DNA from: Roseibium denhamense
Lineage (GTDB): Bacteria; Pseudomonadota; Alphaproteobacteria; Rhizobiales; Stappiaceae
Direction: 5' to 3'
Length of the DNA: 64,000 nt
Assembly (NCBI RefSeq): GCF_009711415.1
Contig: NZ_SMLZ01000093.1
Coordinates: 1 to 64,000 of the forward strand
Below the pieces are notes generated by a model. That model was not told the origin of the DNA, searched no databases, and saw only the letters and a program-made list of their open reading frames with translations. Shown here one piece after another: positions 24,269-30,982 of the stretch. A program made the position numbers and the translations under genes. Numbering within the stretch: position 1 is the stretch's first letter; every line of letters starts with the position of its first letter.

Positions 24269-25585
24269 ATGGGGTCGGCAATGAACCTATTTTCCGGACG
24301 GGCCGGGATCGGATTTCAAGTTCCACGCATGGCAGGTGCGCTTGCAAAGAGCTTTGGTCTCGCGGGGCTGGTACTGCCCTTGACGATGGCGGGCGTGTCC
24401 GCACAAACGGCTTTGCAGTCCCTTCAGCAGAACCGCCAGAACGTGGAATGGGCCGATAACTTCGATATTGCCACGGAAAACATCACCGAGGTGAAGTCCT
24501 ACGCGCCGACACTGTCCCCGGAAACAGCCGATTATATCTCCATTGCCATCGACCGGTATCAGCGGATCGTCCAGGCCGGTGGCTGGGGCGGGGTGACTGC
24601 TGGCGGGAAGGCCATGCGGATCGGGGCAAAAGATTCGCGGGTCGTTGAACTGCGCCGCCGCTTGATCGCATCCGGTGATCTTGAGCAGCACGCCGGATTA
24701 TCCGACACGTTCGATTCATATGTCGATGCTGCCTTGCGCCGTTTTCAGTTGCGCCACGGATTGATACCGGACGGTGTCATGGGCGACAGCACGGTTCAGG
24801 CGCTCAACATTCCGGCCCATGTGCGTTTGCGCCAGCTTGAAACGAACCTTATCCGCATGCGGTCCATGTCCGGCTTTCTGGGCGACCGCTACGTGATGGT
24901 CAATATTCCGGCCGCCGAGATCGAGGCCGTCGAGGATGGCCGCGTCCGCTCCCGCCATACGGCGGTGGTGGGCAAGATCGACCGGCAAACGCCGATCTTG
25001 AACAGCAAGATCTATGAGTTGAACTTCAATCCGTATTGGACGGTTCCCGTATCCATCATCCGCAAGGACCTGATCCCGAAGATGAAGGAGGACCCGCAGT
25101 ACCTCGCCAAGAACAAGATCCGCATCTTCGACTGGAGCGGAAACGAGCTTCAGTGGCAGCAGATCGACTGGAACACGGATGAAGCCACCCAGTATCGGTT
25201 CACTCAGGATCCGGGACAGGAAAACTCGCTTGGATCAGTGCGCATCAACTTTCACAACAAGCATCAGGTCTATCTTCACGACACGCCGTCCAAGACCCTG
25301 TTTGGCGAAGACTACCGCTTCCATTCATCCGGCTGTGTTCGTGTGCAAAATGTCCGCGAGCTTGTGACTTGGCTGCTGCAATCGACCACTCCGGACTGGA
25401 ATCGCGGCAAAGTCGACAGCGTCATCCGCACAGGCGCACGCGAGGATGTCCGGTTGAAGTCCCAGATCCCGCTTTACATGACCTATGTGACTGCCTGGGC
25501 AAATTCCGACGGCGTCGTTCATTTCCGTGATGATATCTACAATCGCGACGACCTGGCAGGCACCGGGGAACAGGCCCGGCTTTAA
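24269..25585 (+). CDS. ldtP: L,D-transpeptidase (LdtP-like)
   Basis: This is a periplasmic peptidoglycan cross-linking enzyme of 438 residues. A signal-like hydrophobic segment runs from about 25 to 45, ending near V-S-A-Q. A peptidoglycan-binding helix bundle follows (R-R-F-Q-L-R-H-G-L-I-P-D-G-V-M-G). The YkuD catalytic domain comes next, with H-S-S-G-C-V-R-V carrying catalytic Cys356. The length and layout fit the long YcbB/LdtP-type enzymes. The start is ATG 24269; ATG 24281, with GGGG about 9 bases upstream, may be the true start. Together with LdtR this forms a cell-wall stress pair. Confidence 0.92.
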   Translation: MGSAMNLFSGRAGIGFQVPRMAGALAKSFGLAGLVLPLTMAGVSAQTALQSLQQNRQNVEWADNFDIATENITEVKSYAPTLSPETADYISIAIDRYQRIVQAGGWGGVTAGGKAMRIGAKDSRVVELRRRLIASGDLEQHAGLSDTFDSYVDAALRRFQLRHGLIPDGVMGDSTVQALNIPAHVRLRQLETNLIRMRSMSGFLGDRYVMVNIPAAEIEAVEDGRVRSRHTAVVGKIDRQTPILNSKIYELNFNPYWTVPVSIIRKDLIPKMKEDPQYLAKNKIRIFDWSGNELQWQQIDWNTDEATQYRFTQDPGQENSLGSVRINFHNKHQVYLHDTPSKTLFGEDYRFHSSGCVRVQNVRELVTWLLQSTTPDWNRGKVDSVIRTGAREDVRLKSQIPLYMTYVTAWANSDGVVHFRDDIYNRDDLAGTGEQARL

Positions 25586-25929: not shown

Positions 25930-26766
25930 TCAGCCGGCGGACTGTTTCATCAAAGTGTCCAGTTCATCGGAGCAGACGTTGCACTCTGCCGACTGAACCT
26001 GGTTTCGCCCGGCGCCTTTCGCCCTGTAGAGGCCATCGTCTGCGCATTTGAACAGCTCATCAATGGCATCCATGTAGGCTCGGCTCTCGGAAGGAGACGG
26101 ACCGGTAAACGTGGCAACGCCAAAGCTCGCCGTGAGCGTAAAAGCCGTCCCATCGGAGGTGATCTCAATTTCCGACAAGGTCTTGCGGAGGCGGTCGGCG
26201 AGTTTGTGCGCGTCTTCGCTGCTTGCATTGGGCATGAGCAGGCCGAATTCCTCGCCGCCCCACCGCGCGACCACATCACTCTGCCGCAAGCTGGCTTCCA
26301 GTGTCCTGGCAACCACTCTGAGCGCTTCATCACCGCCCGCATGGCCATAGGCGTCGTTGATCTGCTTGAACCGGTCAATGTCCATCAGGGCAACGCTCAA
26401 AGGCGCTTGCGTGCGGACTCGAGATTTCAGCTCATGCGTACACAGTTCCAGGAAATGTCCCCGGTTATAAATCCCGGTCAAATTGTCTGTGATAGCCTGG
26501 ATCCGGAATTCTTCGGCCAGTTTCTCGCGGGCCGTCACCTCTCCCTCCAATCGTTCCTTCACAGTCAGCAGTTCTTCCTGCATCCGGTCACACAAGCGCA
26601 CCATCCGCTTCTGTTCCCGGACCGCACGTTTGTATGCAGTGGACAGGGTCTTGATCAGTTCTGTGGTTTCATCGAGGCCATGGAGGATCGTCTCCGCGCG
26701 TTCCAATACGCGGTCTTCATTGTCGAAAAGCGTAAAATCTGAGGCCTTTTTATCGCGTTGCGTCAT
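25930..26766 (-). CDS. siaD: SiaD-like diguanylate cyclase
   Basis: This is a 278-residue cytosolic enzyme that makes c-di-GMP from two GTP. A coiled-coil N-terminal half (about 20-95) is followed by a GGDEF domain starting at T-D-N-L-T-G-I-Y-N-R. The active site is R-W-G-G-E-E-F, intact, and R-Q-S-D just upstream forms an RxxD inhibitory site for product feedback. The last residues include two Cys in C-N-V-C. The start overlaps the siaC stop by 4 bases, and the gene order siaA-B-C-D matches the Pseudomonas SiaABCD system, in which SiaC activates SiaD. Confidence 0.88.
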   Translation of the reverse strand: MTQRDKKASDFTLFDNEDRVLERAETILHGLDETTELIKTLSTAYKRAVREQKRMVRLCDRMQEELLTVKERLEGEVTAREKLAEEFRIQAITDNLTGIYNRGHFLELCTHELKSRVRTQAPLSVALMDIDRFKQINDAYGHAGGDEALRVVARTLEASLRQSDVVARWGGEEFGLLMPNASSEDAHKLADRLRKTLSEIEITSDGTAFTLTASFGVATFTGPSPSESRAYMDAIDELFKCADDGLYRAKGAGRNQVQSAECNVCSDELDTLMKQSAG

Positions 26767-27164
26767 GCAACAGTGCCCTCGGGTGTCAGATTGAAGGTCG
26801 CGTGTTCAAAGTCCTCGGCGAAATCCTCTCCCATCTCCTCCATCATGTCATCGTCAGGATCATAGTACCAGTTGATCACGATGCTGTGGCCGCCCTCGGC
26901 CGCCTCTTCGAGCATCTGGAAAAGGTTCATGATCGCCTTTGCGCTTGAGGAATTGAAGTAGACGAAGCGGATATTGGCGGTGAACAGTTCGCCCTTGCGG
27001 GCGTTCAAGAAGCCCTTCACTTCCTGGAACACTGGTCCGTAAAAGGCGCTTGCGTCTTCCGGATAGCTTTCGCCTGAGATGCCCAGCGTCCGGGACGTTG
27101 GATCAAGATGAATTTCGGGCGAACGCGGGGTCGCTTCAACGGTGTAAGGAGCATCATAAGTCAT
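26763..27164 (-). CDS. siaC: SiaC family regulatory phosphoprotein (DUF1987)
   Basis: This is a 133-residue anti-sigma-antagonist-like adaptor. In Pseudomonas aeruginosa, SiaC in its unphosphorylated form binds and activates the cyclase SiaD; SiaB phosphorylates it at Thr68 and SiaA removes the phosphate. DUF1987 features here are I-S-G-E-S-Y-P-E-D-A, V-Y-F-N-S-S-S-A-K-A-I-M and W-Y-Y-D-P-D-D-D-M. The residue expected to match Thr68 looks like Ser72 in N-S-S-S, so phosphorylation would be on serine. The start is 11 bases after the siaB stop. Confidence 0.88.
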   Translation of the reverse strand: MTYDAPYTVEATPRSPEIHLDPTSRTLGISGESYPEDASAFYGPVFQEVKGFLNARKGELFTANIRFVYFNSSSAKAIMNLFQMLEEAAEGGHSIVINWYYDPDDDMMEEMGEDFAEDFEHATFNLTPEGTVA

Positions 27165-27175
27165 GTCCGGCCTCC

Positions 27176-27727
27176 TTACACAAATGCTTTCAGGACGAAG
27201 AACTTGCGCCCGTCATCGATGTCATAGAAGTCGAACTCGAGGGGTTCGGTCGCCCGTCTTGCAATCTCCAGCAATCCGATGGAGCCGCCTTCACTTTGCT
27301 CCTCCGGGTCTTCGCGCAGTTTTGTGCGGTAGTATTTTCTGAGCGTGTCCTCATCCATTGTTGAGATCAGCTGCAATCGTTCGGAAAGCTTGGCGGCCTC
27401 GGCCGCTGGAAGCGGATTGCCGCAGATTACGAAGAAACGGTCGTTTTCGTGACCGAAGGCCACGACCCCTGAAGACAAACGGTCCGTGATCGTATCGGAA
27501 AGCCAATGCTTTTCATCCGAATAGCGGATGACATTCTGAACCTGTTCCACGAACACTGAAAACACCCTGCGGGCAACTTTGCCGTCGGCGTTTTTCAGTT
27601 CCATCTGCTGTTTTACCGCGCTGCCAAGGGAGTGCAGGAGGTTTTCAGAAACCATGCCCGAATAGGCGAACAGCGTGTTGCGGGTGCTGAGTTCCTCACG
27701 GAAGTTATAGATGTCTTGAGCCAGCAT
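27176..27727 (-). CDS. siaB: SiaB family protein kinase (DUF6272)
   Basis: This is a 183-residue GHKL-fold kinase expected to phosphorylate SiaC. The N-box-like V-E-Q-V-Q-N-V-I-R-Y-S and the G-rich G-G-S-I-G-L-L-E-I-A-R-R of the ATP lid are visible, and the protein lacks any sensor domain. It is tightly linked to siaA (9 bases) and siaC (11 bases), as in the known four-gene system. The start is ATG 27727. No signal peptide or membrane helix is seen. Confidence 0.85.
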   Translation of the reverse strand: MLAQDIYNFREELSTRNTLFAYSGMVSENLLHSLGSAVKQQMELKNADGKVARRVFSVFVEQVQNVIRYSDEKHWLSDTITDRLSSGVVAFGHENDRFFVICGNPLPAAEAAKLSERLQLISTMDEDTLRKYYRTKLREDPEEQSEGGSIGLLEIARRATEPLEFDFYDIDDGRKFFVLKAFV

Positions 27728-27736
27728 TTAGATCTC

Positions 27737-29395
27737 CTAGTTGACCCGCGTCCCGCCGGCGGATGACTTAAGGTGAGGAGAAACGGCCAGGACCGTGTAG
27801 TCATCACGTGCCGGTTCATCACCTCGATAGTCCTCAAGAACGGTTTTCAGCTTCGACAATTGTGTTTCAAGATCGGCATAGGCATTGGCCTCAAGCACAT
27901 CGAAAAGGCGTTTGCGTCCGAATGCGCGCTTCTTGTCGCCGCCGATGTGGTCGGTGGTGCCGTCTGTTGCGAGATAAAACGTATCATCCGGGCCGAGCGT
28001 CATCCGATGCACTTTAAAGCTCTCCGGGCGGCGCAGGCTCCGGTAACCAAGCCGGTGGCGGTCGGCGGAGACACGCGTCACACCGTCCTGTGACAGGACG
28101 AACAAAGGAATACCCGCACCGACATAGGTGAGGGAGCTGTCTTCATAGTCGAAGATGGCCAAGGCGGCCTCGAAGCCGTCATCGGTTTTGTCGATGCTCA
28201 ATGTGGCACCTGAGGGATCTTCCTGGCCAAGTCTGCGGCGCACGGTCTTGTCGAGACGCAGCATCAGATCTTCGGGATCCAAAACATCGAGATCATCGAG
28301 GAGTTTGGTTAGCTCGGAGGAGACAACCATCGTCAGCAACGCGCCTGGAACGCCATGCCCGGTGCAGTCCGCGACAAAAAAGATGGCCTTGTTGTCCCGC
28401 CGGGTCGACCAAACATAATCACCGCTGACGACTTGCAGGGGCTCCCACAGCAGGGCGACATCGCGCATCGAGCTCCGCATATCTGCAAGGTCGGGCAAAA
28501 CACCTTCCTGGATCTTGCGGGCATACTGAATGCTTTCCAGCAGCTGATCATTCACGGTTTTCAGTTCGGCCTTGTTCGCTTCCGAAGCGGCCAGAGCGTC
28601 TTGCAATTGCGACATGGTCCGCTGGATCGTGCGGGCCATCGGCCGGAAGATCAGAAGCACTTCCAATGCGATCAGAAGCAATGTCAGCAGCCACATGTAC
28701 GTGATGAATTCTGTTAAGGCATTAAGCGATTGCTCGCCTTCCTCCTGAAAGCGCCTGACCAAGGTGTTGAGCTTGCCCGGCAATTCCTGATTTGCCAGCA
28801 GCAAGATCTTGTCGAGGTCCGCCTGCTCGGGATACTCCTGCGACGCAATGTTGACAGCTGTGTCGATGTACTTCCGCAGGAGCGTGTCCAGGGGGCGCTC
28901 ACCACCGAAAAAGGCTTCTCTCAGCTCCGGTGACAGGTCTCCGACCGGATGTTGGGTCGCAATCCCCGGCTCACATTTGATGGCGTCCGCCAATGCCTTG
29001 TTGATGAGGTCCAGATTTGTAGATAGCAGCGCAACATGCGCCCGCATCATCTGGTCAGCACATCCTGCCAGCAATGCATGGGCGTCCACATTGTTCACGC
29101 GCTGATAGTCCGTCATGTCCTGCGCGATCATGCCGATCCGCTGGCTCAGCATCCTTTGACGGCCGGACAAATTGACTTCCGCGCCAATCCGGTTCTGCTC
29201 GGCAATGAAGCGCGTGTCCGCCACCCAGATCGTCGTGACGGTCATAGCAATCAAGCCGAGACCAACACTGTAAGCGATTGTAGGCAGTAACCGGGATGTT
29301 TGCAGCAACTGGGTCAGGTTCATGCAATAGATGCCGTTGTTGTTTGTGACGCCGTGTTTTTGAGCAAGTTCTGAATGATGGAACCGGAAAATCAT
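27737..29395 (-). CDS. siaA: SiaA-like membrane sensor PP2C phosphatase
   Basis: This is a 552-residue inner-membrane protein. Two membrane helices (about 37-60 and 232-252) flank a periplasmic PilJ-type sensing region with S-G-R-Q-R-M-L-S-Q-R-I. A coiled linker leads to a SpoIIE/PP2C phosphatase domain with metal-binding acidic residues in V-S-G-D-Y, D-C-T-G-H-G-V-P-G, A-T-D-G-T-T-D and A-R-D-D-Y-T. It should dephosphorylate SiaC and so raise c-di-GMP synthesis. ATG 29323 (M-N-L-T-Q) is an alternative start; neither has a good Shine-Dalgarno. It is first in the operon. Confidence 0.87.
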   Translation of the reverse strand: MIFRFHHSELAQKHGVTNNNGIYCMNLTQLLQTSRLLPTIAYSVGLGLIAMTVTTIWVADTRFIAEQNRIGAEVNLSGRQRMLSQRIGMIAQDMTDYQRVNNVDAHALLAGCADQMMRAHVALLSTNLDLINKALADAIKCEPGIATQHPVGDLSPELREAFFGGERPLDTLLRKYIDTAVNIASQEYPEQADLDKILLLANQELPGKLNTLVRRFQEEGEQSLNALTEFITYMWLLTLLLIALEVLLIFRPMARTIQRTMSQLQDALAASEANKAELKTVNDQLLESIQYARKIQEGVLPDLADMRSSMRDVALLWEPLQVVSGDYVWSTRRDNKAIFFVADCTGHGVPGALLTMVVSSELTKLLDDLDVLDPEDLMLRLDKTVRRRLGQEDPSGATLSIDKTDDGFEAALAIFDYEDSSLTYVGAGIPLFVLSQDGVTRVSADRHRLGYRSLRRPESFKVHRMTLGPDDTFYLATDGTTDHIGGDKKRAFGRKRLFDVLEANAYADLETQLSKLKTVLEDYRGDEPARDDYTVLAVSPHLKSSAGGTRVN

Positions 29396-29677: not shown

Positions 29678-30982
29678 ATGTCTTTGATGGAAACGTCCGA
29701 TCAAGCCCTGCAATCAGGCTTCTTCACCCGCGGAGTTGCGGAAACCGATCCGGAACTGTTCGGCACCATTGAAAAGGAACTCGGCCGGCAGCAGCACGAA
29801 ATCGAGCTGATTGCATCGGAAAACATCGTCTCCAAGGCCGTTTTGGAAGCGCAGGGCTCTGTTCTCACCAACAAGTATGCGGAAGGCTATCCAGGCAAGC
29901 GTTATTACGGCGGTTGCCAATATGTCGACCTGGCGGAAAACCTGGCCATCGAACGGGCGACCAAGCTGTTCGGTTGCGAGTTTGCAAATGTTCAGCCGAG
30001 CTCGGGCAGCCAGGCAAACCAATCGGTATTCCTGGCATTGATCAAACCGGGCGACACCATTTTGGGCATGAGCCTCGATGCTGGCGGCCACTTGACCCAC
30101 GGTGCCAAGCCGAACCTCTCCGGCAAATGGTTCAATGCCGTTCAATATGGCCTGAACGTCGAAACGGGCCTGATCGACTATGATGCGATGGCAGCCCTTG
30201 CCCGCGAACACAAGCCGGCCCTGATCATCGCAGGCGGATCTGCCTATTCGCGCACAATTGACTTTGCGAAGTTCCGCGAAGTTGCCGATGAAGTGGGCGC
30301 CTACCTCATGGTGGATATGGCGCACTTTGCTGGTCTGGTTGCCGCTGGCGAGCATCCGAGCCCGTTCCCGCATGCCGATGTTGCAACCACCACCACACAC
30401 AAGACACTGCGTGGCCCACGCGGCGGTATGGTGCTGACCAACAAGGAAGAAATCGCCAAGAAGATCAATTCGGCGGTTTTTCCGGGTCTTCAGGGCGGCC
30501 CGCTCATGCATGTTGTTGCGGCAAAGGCAGTCGCTTTCGGGGAAGCCCTGACCGATGATTTCAAAAGTTACGTTAAGTCTGTCCGCGAAAACGCTCAGGT
30601 TCTTGCTGAAACACTCCGCTCCGGCGGCCTTGATATTGTCTCCGGCGGCACCGACACGCATTTGATGCTCGTGGATCTGCGTCCGAAGATGCTCAATGGC
30701 CGTGATACGGAAAAGGCACTTGGCCGCGCTAACATCACCTGTAACAAGAACGGTGTTCCGAACGATCCGCAAAAACCGATGATCACGTCTGGCATCCGTT
30801 TGGGCACACCGGCAGCAACAACCCGTGGCTTCGGCGTGGCCGAATTCCGCGAAGTCGGCCTCTTGATCACGGAAGTGTTGGACGGTTTGAAGTCTTCAAA
30901 CAGTGAAGAGGGCAACGAGGCTGTTGAAGCCGCGGTCAAAGCCAAGGTAGAAGCACTGACGGCCCGGTTCCCGATCTACTGA
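29678..30982 (+). CDS. glyA: Serine hydroxymethyltransferase
   Basis: GlyA converts serine and tetrahydrofolate to glycine and methylene-tetrahydrofolate, feeding one-carbon metabolism. The 434 residues show E-L-I-A-S-E-N near the N-terminus and the PLP-binding lysine in [14 protein letters not shown] (Lys242). The length is normal. I chose ATG 29678 because AAGGA lies 7 bases upstream; in-frame sequence further upstream has no homology. nrdR follows after 30 bases. Confidence 0.96.

Follow-up and report, generated by a model that had tools for sequence, protein, structure and literature searches.

Does the small adaptor protein SiaC serve one diguanylate cyclase, or can it act on enzymes of several kinds? 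The question is raised by an operon within a stretch of 64,000 nucleotides from Roseibium denhamense (positions 1 to 64,000 of contig NZ_SMLZ01000093.1, in the following “the window”), whose four genes resemble siaABCD of Pseudomonas aeruginosa. In the latter organism SiaB phosphorylates SiaC and SiaA reverses this modification (PMC7647112), while unphosphorylated SiaC docks on and dimerises SiaD, a step that is blocked by the phosphate (PMC8457831). In the literature found, SiaC was studied with one cyclase, in P. aeruginosa; for proteins of its family, DUF1987, a modulation of adjacent proteins has been suggested (PMC8457831). We conclude, with a probability of roughly 0.85, that the locus constitutes a partner switch of the SiaABCD type and that the N-terminal stalk of its cyclase is a portable SiaC-receiving module present on several kinds of enzymes. 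Since the module is shared in this way, SiaC is probably a general rather than a cyclase-specific activator. The locus by itself is a modest addition to the known SiaABCD switches; the presence of the stalk on several enzyme kinds is the larger result.

A probable SiaC-docking stalk occurs on several kinds of enzymes

SiaD of the window is a GGDEF protein (Pfam, 1.2e-44) with an N-terminal SiaC-docking motif. Among 56 GGDEF sequences matched in the PDB, SiaD of P. aeruginosa (7e6g) is found at 3.6e-25, and the SiaC-bound form of that protein is also the top fold match of the AlphaFold model of the window SiaD (mean predicted local distance difference test, pLDDT, of 88.5), in which residues 13-92 are predicted to form a single helix running into the GGDEF domain. 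The stalk alone retrieved nothing relevant from the PDB sequences. A search of 5.8 billion proteins with it gave 14 matches, all combined with GGDEF and, where the organism is named, from Roseibium or Labrenzia; as this search needs shared words of five residues, it speaks neither for nor against other outputs.

A scan of public genomes with the window SiaC yielded 116 relatives, of which the best 80 loci were kept. In these loci the gene 3' of SiaC mostly starts with the same stalk, while its C-terminal output is not always a GGDEF domain. Together with 60 chosen SiaC-hit stretches from the genome searches described below and the window, they form a survey set of 141 stretches (7266 open reading frames, ORFs), a non-random sample in which some stretches come from the same strains. 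A stalk gene lies within 3.5 kb of 126 of the 141 SiaC copies, the nearest stalk protein being a GGDEF protein in 74 cases, a histidine kinase in 34, an HD-GYP protein in eight and a class III nucleotide cyclase in seven, with three unassigned and 15 absent. With a stalk profile derived from GGDEF proteins only (52 seeds, themselves among its matches), 117 ORFs were retrieved at E<1e-3, comprising 67 GGDEF proteins (mostly seeds), 35 kinases, seven HD-GYP proteins, five nucleotide cyclases and three unassigned proteins. Directly downstream of SiaC are 112 of them; the other five are divergent beside siaBC (L027, L129, L147), lie in a locus in which no SiaC ORF was called (L070) or represent an over-extended ORF (L166). 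The output classes were confirmed by Pfam on ten proteins (HATPase_c with or without HisKA, receiver and Hpt; Guanylate_cyc; HD_5 with or without GAF). When 21 stalked proteins were scanned with Pfam, the stalk itself gave no match above a family cut-off.

Stalk and SiaC also go together in whole genomes. In the class sample (385 genomes) SiaC is present in 13 genomes and the stalk, searched with profile A3, in 14, both occurring together in 13 (Fisher 2.6e-23). The phylum sample (398 genomes) contains SiaC in 66, the stalk in 55 and both in 54 (Fisher 1e-53). In these searches SiaC was counted over its cut-off, at most 14-15 candidates were scored per genome, and the draws for SiaC and stalk comprised the same genomes where these are listed. 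As some of the loci underlying A3 came from these very genomes, the positives are partly expected, and it is the near absence of matches elsewhere which is informative.

Out of 80 stalk copies, 54 are located within 2 kb of SiaC and 26 farther away, 25 of the latter in SiaC-bearing genomes. Two of these distant stalks share the contig of SiaC, at 2.6 and 6.4 kb; because contigs are short in many genomes, a seemingly unlinked stalk may simply be on another contig. Fetching the regions of 20 of the 26 distant stalks gave 18 ORFs at E<1e-3, namely seven HD-GYP proteins, seven SpoIIE phosphatases, three hybrid kinases and one nucleotide cyclase, with Pfam confirming the ten that were sent; in two further loci, L237 and L240, the motif is that of the second cyclase type introduced below. 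In ten SiaC genomes the stalks outnumber the SiaC genes, so that one phosphorylated adaptor may set c-di-GMP (cyclic diguanosine monophosphate), cAMP/cGMP (cyclic adenosine or guanosine monophosphate), phosphorelay and phosphatase outputs together.

The docking motif is in heptad register with the output domain

By linker we mean the distance, in residues, between the docking Asp and a fixed position in the output domain. The heptad rule was spotted by eye and then measured, the motif patterns being revised between runs. In the first run 71 of 73 GGDEF proteins had linkers of 6 modulo 7, the two others representing a false motif match (L043) and a distal motif (L150), and the kinases fell into two classes with 3 and 1 modulo 7. 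In the main run the GGDEF linkers measure 20, 27, 34 (window), 48 and 55 residues, 64 out of 65 distinct linkers being 6 modulo 7; the sole exception (L150, 52 residues) was counted from the distal motif, whereas its proximal motif gives 20. All seven HisKA kinase linkers (22, 36, 43, 50, 64) are 1 modulo 7, and all 30 linkers of the HE-NTP-type kinases from Magnetospirillum and relatives (45, 52) are 3 modulo 7. Likewise in step are class III cyclases of a first type (23, 30, 37; 6/6) and SpoIIE phosphatases (39, 53; 7/7). Within five output subclasses, sorted post hoc, linkers thus differ by steps of seven residues only. HD-GYP proteins (55 residues, 16 linkers) and the second cyclase type (34 residues, four linkers) show a single length each and offer no test of the rule. 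The GGDEF length of 55 and the kinase lengths of 22, 43, 45, 50 and 64 rest on one protein each. Seven rows remained unassigned in the main run, six being phosphatases, which were measured separately, and one the frameshifted L030. The product of the chance probabilities, 7e-11, is post hoc and takes the lengths as independent.

In contrast, the distance between a conserved N-terminal LF..E box of the stalk and the docking Asp is unstepped (42, 43, 46, 47, 48, 49 and 52 residues in 64 GGDEF proteins). It is therefore the docking motif, not the N-terminal box, whose register with the output is fixed, as it would be for a sensor domain.

Coiled coils in general are expected to have heptad-stepped linkers, and as the stalk is a predicted long helix, a kind of structure that can yield spurious profile matches, its likeness across the output classes might be generic coiled-coil similarity rather than reflect a common docking module. 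We regard this as unlikely. In an alignment of 40 stalks the SDR motif has one Asp that never varies and an Arg that hardly does, in addition to the separate LF..E box, and in the genome samples stalk matches are almost confined to SiaC-bearing genomes. Moreover, 45 of 48 histidine-kinase ORFs of the surveyed loci that were not scored as SiaC-adjacent are devoid of the stalk, and the three that possess it sit at SiaC or SiaB genes.

We consider it somewhat better than an even chance that SiaC is a general plug-in activator. Its receiver would be a stalk of about 70 residues, composed of the LF..E box and the SDR motif, whose heptad register with the dimeric enzyme behind it is fixed, the outputs being diguanylate cyclases, simple and hybrid histidine kinases, class III nucleotide cyclases, GAF-HD-GYP proteins and SpoIIE phosphatases. 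If the stalk is such a shared socket, several second-messenger and phosphorelay enzymes answer to a single small family of phospho-adaptors, all through an identical physical step. SiaC of any such locus should then bind the adjacent enzyme via the SDR motif, and linker changes by whole heptads should be tolerated but other lengths not. The stalk also provides a sequence rule by which a regulator can be assigned to the kinases, cyclases, HD-GYP proteins and phosphatases that carry it.

Comparison with P. aeruginosa and proposed mechanism

The P. aeruginosa system (6k4e, 6k4f, 6kko, 7e6g) and the window share the gene order, a PP2C phosphatase, a SiaB kinase with Glu61, the SiaC adaptor and a stalked GGDEF cyclase with an inhibitory-site (I-site) motif and the proximal docking motif. 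Unlike its counterpart, the window has Ser in place of Thr68 of SiaC, a single docking motif instead of two, a PilJ sensor and a docking-to-GGDEF linker of 34 instead of 20 residues, i.e. two heptads longer. What differs is therefore the input, the letter at the phosphosite and how many docking sites there are, while the core of kinase, adaptor and cyclase is kept. The second docking motif is a feature of six Pseudomonas-type SiaD proteins, where the two motifs are 32 residues apart; the window has the proximal one only.

The published SiaC–SiaD contacts (PMC8457831) were transferred to the window using the Pseudomonas-type locus L158, whose SiaD shows the published S50/G52/Q54 and S82/R84/Q86 but Gln in place of R74. 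Out of 14 SiaC contact positions six are unchanged in the window (Y34, Y69, N71, S73, M79, D118) and four have similar letters (E32, S72, M111, D114). The corresponding numbers for 13 SiaD positions are four (R57, D60, R61, Q63) and three (R54, M55, L58). The central contact residues are kept and several outer ones are not; according to our reading of the contact list in PMC8457831, two outer pairs are replaced on both sides (D79–R74 by Q83/E51 and R103–D91 by M107/T68).

Phosphorylation, docking, activation and their direction are carried over from P. aeruginosa in the mechanism we propose. SiaB would phosphorylate SiaC, here at Ser72, and SiaA, a membrane phosphatase under the control of its PilJ-type sensor, would take the phosphate off again. 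Unphosphorylated SiaC would dock on the SiaD stalk at its only SDR-type motif and hold two stalk helices as a parallel coiled coil. The two GGDEF domains would thereby be brought together and make c-di-GMP until feedback through the I-site stops synthesis.

An alternative is a reversed polarity, in which phosphorylated SiaC is the form binding or activating SiaD, or Ser72 alters the logic of the switch. It could draw on the Ser at the phosphosite, on Cys59 in place of the docking Ser82 and on the differing outer contacts. Yet Ser is the usual letter at this site (131 of 141 SiaC copies; Thr in ten), the N-S-S core facing D60 and Q63 is kept, and in P. aeruginosa the phosphate blocks docking (PMC8457831). 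We hold a reversed polarity to be quite unlikely. As Ser is the commonest letter among the copies examined, the idea that Ser72 might be unusual was discarded.

Sigma factors are the targets of many partner switches with SpoIIE phosphatases. SiaA, SiaB and SiaC might accordingly serve another target, for instance in a sigma-factor circuit, the GGDEF gene merely being co-transcribed. This appears very improbable, since siaC and siaD overlap, a stalk gene accompanies most SiaC copies of the survey within 3.5 kb, and the central docking residues are kept in the window.

Several findings weigh against our reading of the locus and its stalk. The 15 SiaC copies without a stalk gene within 3.5 kb include L155, L132 and four of one family (L133, L137, L140, L153). 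Among the enzyme ORFs scored as SiaC-adjacent, 23 are without a stalk at E<1e-2; ten of them are additional, second GGDEF genes of Magnetospirillum-type loci, six are of the Pseudomonas type and seven are others. Twelve of the 66 SiaC genomes give no stalk match; in five of these (G462, G495, G567, G711, G786) the profile overlooks a Pseudomonas-type SiaD with two motifs, two (G499, G562) have partial SiaC matches only, and the remaining five are unaccounted for. Conversely, G507 has a stalk without SiaC, and G120 of the class sample matched at 6.7e-4 only. Kinases and nucleotide cyclases were split into types after the result of the first run, hence post hoc, and if the cyclases were pooled, the second type (34 residues) would break the heptad rule. 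Neither the alignment nor inspection by eye reveals a distal docking motif in the window SiaD, four SiaC contact positions (P13, A75, Q83, M107) and six SiaD positions (E51, C59, M62, E65, L67, T68) are changed, and the PilJ match of SiaA is narrow (30.2 bits versus a cut-off of 26.6). For members outside Pseudomonas, we found no interaction, phosphorylation or enzyme assay in the open-access literature.

The operon of the window and its products

A sequence-only reading of the window had described a complete SiaABCD-like operon of four tightly packed genes, encoding a PilJ-like sensor with PP2C phosphatase, a kinase, a DUF1987 adaptor and a GGEEF cyclase with an RxxD site. All four ORFs are found there on the minus strand in the order siaA-siaB-siaC-siaD, with the same spacing (9 bases between siaA and siaB, 11 between siaB and siaC, an overlap of 4 bases between siaC and siaD). 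Each assignment stood up to the family searches: Pfam returns SpoIIE (5.5e-25) and PilJ (5.2e-7) in SiaA; the second gene product matches DUF6272 (PF19788, 4.9e-41) and passes the SiaB subfamily NF038262 (200.9 bits versus a cut-off of 85); SiaC matches PF09345, the DUF1987 of the literature, now named “SiaC”, at 2.8e-42 (143.6 bits versus a cut-off of 24.5); and RQSD lies upstream of GGEEF in SiaD. The SiaABCD identity thus holds at the level of families. It fails at the level of Pseudomonas orthologs, as all four NCBIfam equivalog cut-offs are missed (SiaA 170.1 versus 700, SiaB 104.3 versus 225, SiaC 95.1 versus 150, SiaD 176.1 versus 290). Because of these scores, the absence of one docking motif and the different sensor, we call the operon SiaABCD-like and do not regard it as orthologous to the Pseudomonas set. 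A chance gene cluster was rejected, as the four family matches come in order.

Table 1. Positions of the operon, its functional elements and its flanking genes in the window.
Feature	Positions	Strand	Remarks
siaA	27737..29323	-	528 amino acids from likely start; longest ORF 29395-27737, 552 amino acids
PilJ N-terminal domain of SiaA	29006..29203	-	residues 65-130 of 552-residue reading; PF13675
PP2C (SpoIIE) domain of SiaA	27779..28396	-	SGD, DCTGHG, TDG and RDD motifs present
siaB	27176..27727	-	183 amino acids; putative SiaB-family protein kinase; Glu61 kept
siaC	26763..27164	-	133 amino acids; SiaC-family adaptor; PF09345
Ser72 codon of SiaC	26949..26951	-	aligned with phospho-Thr68 of P. 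aeruginosa SiaC
siaD	25930..26766	-	278 amino acids; diguanylate cyclase: helical docking stalk and GGDEF domain
N-terminal docking stalk of SiaD	26530..26739	-	portable module, alignment A3
SiaC-docking motif RLCDRMQ of SiaD	26578..26598	-	residues 57-63; matches proximal P. aeruginosa motif 80-86
Linker of SiaD, docking Asp60 to GGDEF-domain Asp94	26485..26589	-	34 residues, 6 modulo 7 like other GGDEF members
Inhibitory-site motif RQSD of SiaD	26275..26286	-	sequence; A4 alignment
GGEEF active-site motif of SiaD	26245..26259	-	sequence; A4 alignment
L,D-transpeptidase (YkuD) gene	24269..25585	+	one edge of operon site
glyA (serine hydroxymethyltransferase)	29678..30982	+	other edge of operon site; start inferred

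The start of siaA is probably at 29323, 24 codons downstream of that of the longest ORF, as suggested by alignment with Roseibium relatives. The metal-binding Asp residues of its PP2C domain are kept within the motifs, and among the PDB sequences the SiaA-PP2C of P. aeruginosa (6k4e_A) is matched at 9e-35. The same entry is the top fold match of the AlphaFold model (mean pLDDT 87.3; template-modelling score, TM(target), 0.88). By their descriptions, the best 50 of 613 fold matches are phosphatases, and the sensor region retrieved no relative from the PDB sequences, a single match at E 1.8 being attributable to chance. The SiaA equivalog profile covers residues 250-537 only, and PilJ is called in the N-terminal half; the sensor is thus not of the Pseudomonas type. 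Even within Roseibium it varies, L025 and L185 being unlike the window by eye. Among the matches listed, PilJ and SpoIIE are combined in nine of 120 proteins according to precomputed domains, including the window's own; the one of the nine that has an organism name is from Roseibium hamelinense. The reported response of P. aeruginosa SiaA to membrane perturbation (PMC12834913) is not transferable to the window, as the sensor differs. In a protein of 904 amino acids (P0210), precomputed Pfam domains reveal an ammonium transporter, SiaB (DUF6272) and a SpoIIE phosphatase in one chain, i.e. the kinase and the phosphatase of such a switch joined to one transporter.

SiaB matches 6kko_A in the PDB at 1.7e-20, an entry deposited as “putative serine phosphatase” which we take to be P. 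aeruginosa SiaB. In the alignment to this chain, Glu61 is kept within the motif VFVEQVQN, which starts at residue 58. The catalytic role of this Glu is itself a prediction (PMC7647112). For SiaC, the PDB sequences matched are the P. aeruginosa SiaC chains 6k4f and 6kko_C (best 7.7e-18), and the predicted phosphosite is occupied by a phosphorylatable residue, Ser72. A Sulfuricella metagenome-assembled genome (MAG) contains two tandem SiaC genes (L036:3404-4190) together with three PP2C matches, and no SiaB match is seen in the fetched stretch.

Distribution within Roseibium and relatives

In nine Roseibium stretches siaABCD is located between glyA-nrdR-ribD-ribE and ykuD-marR, L023 covering the glyA side only and L022 and L187 looking like one strain. 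Searching 41 genomes of the genus for the ykuD locus returned 30 loci, 11 genomes being without one. In 22 of these loci glyA lies inside the 1.5-kb ykuD flank, which is hence operon-free; six, the window included, have siaD and siaC in this flank, and two (G001, G007, both SiaC-positive) have neither glyA nor siaD/siaC. At this one site, therefore, the operon is either there as a whole or missing altogether. As it has this one fixed site and no other cargo alongside, insertion of a mobile element was ruled out. SiaC is found in seven of 37 genus genomes, counting the window's own, and its scarcity could suggest a decaying cassette whose genes persist without function; four open frames with intact catalytic motifs and the completeness of the four-gene set in each Roseibium locus whose contig spans the operon render this hardly credible.

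The search that gave seven of 37 for the genus found no SiaC in 24 genomes of the same order but of different families. Later searches identified order members with SiaC in G343, G571 and G586 and in Methylobacterium and Microvirga loci. A quick tree of joined SiaB and SiaC sequences (136 rows, 120 of which have one of the four main outputs) groups Roseibium with Tistrella (SH-aLRT, Shimodaira–Hasegawa-like approximate likelihood ratio test, 92). G678 (L161), from another genus of the window's family, groups with Microvirga and encodes, after siaB-siaC, a class III cyclase with a stalk in place of a GGDEF protein; outputs therefore differ even within this family. On the tree the four main outputs need at least ten changes.

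Relation to other partner switches

RsbT and the N-terminal domain of RsbU are proteins other than SiaC and the stalk. The RsbT–RsbU toolkit nevertheless resembles them in that a partner makes a dimerising coiled coil out of a flexible linker, and the rigidification of such linkers, a kind common to phosphatases, cyclases and kinases, by a partner protein has been proposed as a principle (PMC12143880). The RsbU N-terminal domain is also cited on a GGDEF protein and on histidine kinases, and a term count gave 0 occurrences of SiaC in that paper (PMC12143880). In contrast to the RsbU domain, the receiver of SiaC is a short stalk with a sequence motif, and it is present on five broad enzyme kinds.

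BgrSTUWV of Sinorhizobium meliloti and HsbA-HsbD of P. aeruginosa are, like the window, partner switches controlling a diguanylate cyclase (PMC8457831). By description, their STAS adaptors set them apart from the SiaC-family adaptor of the window (PMC8457831). In Campylobacterota, switches of PP2C phosphatase, kinase and STAS protein (STYK-PP2C/STAS) are predicted from gene clusters to control a c-di-GMP enzyme, with SiaABCD cited beside them as the verified case (PMC9239204). No docking stalk is described in the parts of PMC9239204 covered, and a chemoreceptor is proposed there as the target of another such switch. A term search of the main text of a survey of alphaproteobacterial c-di-GMP genes gave no occurrence of SiaD (PMC9756655). 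We found no description of SiaC with kinase, nucleotide cyclase, HD-GYP or phosphatase outputs in the open-access literature, which was covered mostly by listing and to the exclusion of subscription journals; the term DUF1987 occurs in one paper of this literature.

Further observations on stalk loci

In a Rhodocyclaceae MAG a HisKA kinase and a GGDEF cyclase, both with a stalk, come after a single SiaC gene (L031:6495-8368). A nucleotide cyclase encoded by L239:989-2632 combines the stalk and a class III cyclase with a C-terminal PilZ domain and may thus also read c-di-GMP. Directly after SiaC, L155:2534-3934 encodes an HD-GYP protein whose only docking-like motif is weak (RQERIMARSDKRQ) and may be a socket that has diverged; by eye, the ORF that follows SiaC in L132:1416-2024 seems to fuse the start of a stalk to hemerythrin-like sequence. 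In a Helicobacteraceae MAG the stalked GGDEF gene after SiaC is seemingly frameshifted, being split into two ORFs (L030:10372-11221). Finally, four Thioalkalivibrio loci (L035, L038, L041, L061) encode stalked GGEEF proteins in which RxxD of the I-site is replaced (e.g. LGADQYAGRMGGEEF), which suggests that these cyclases are free of product feedback.

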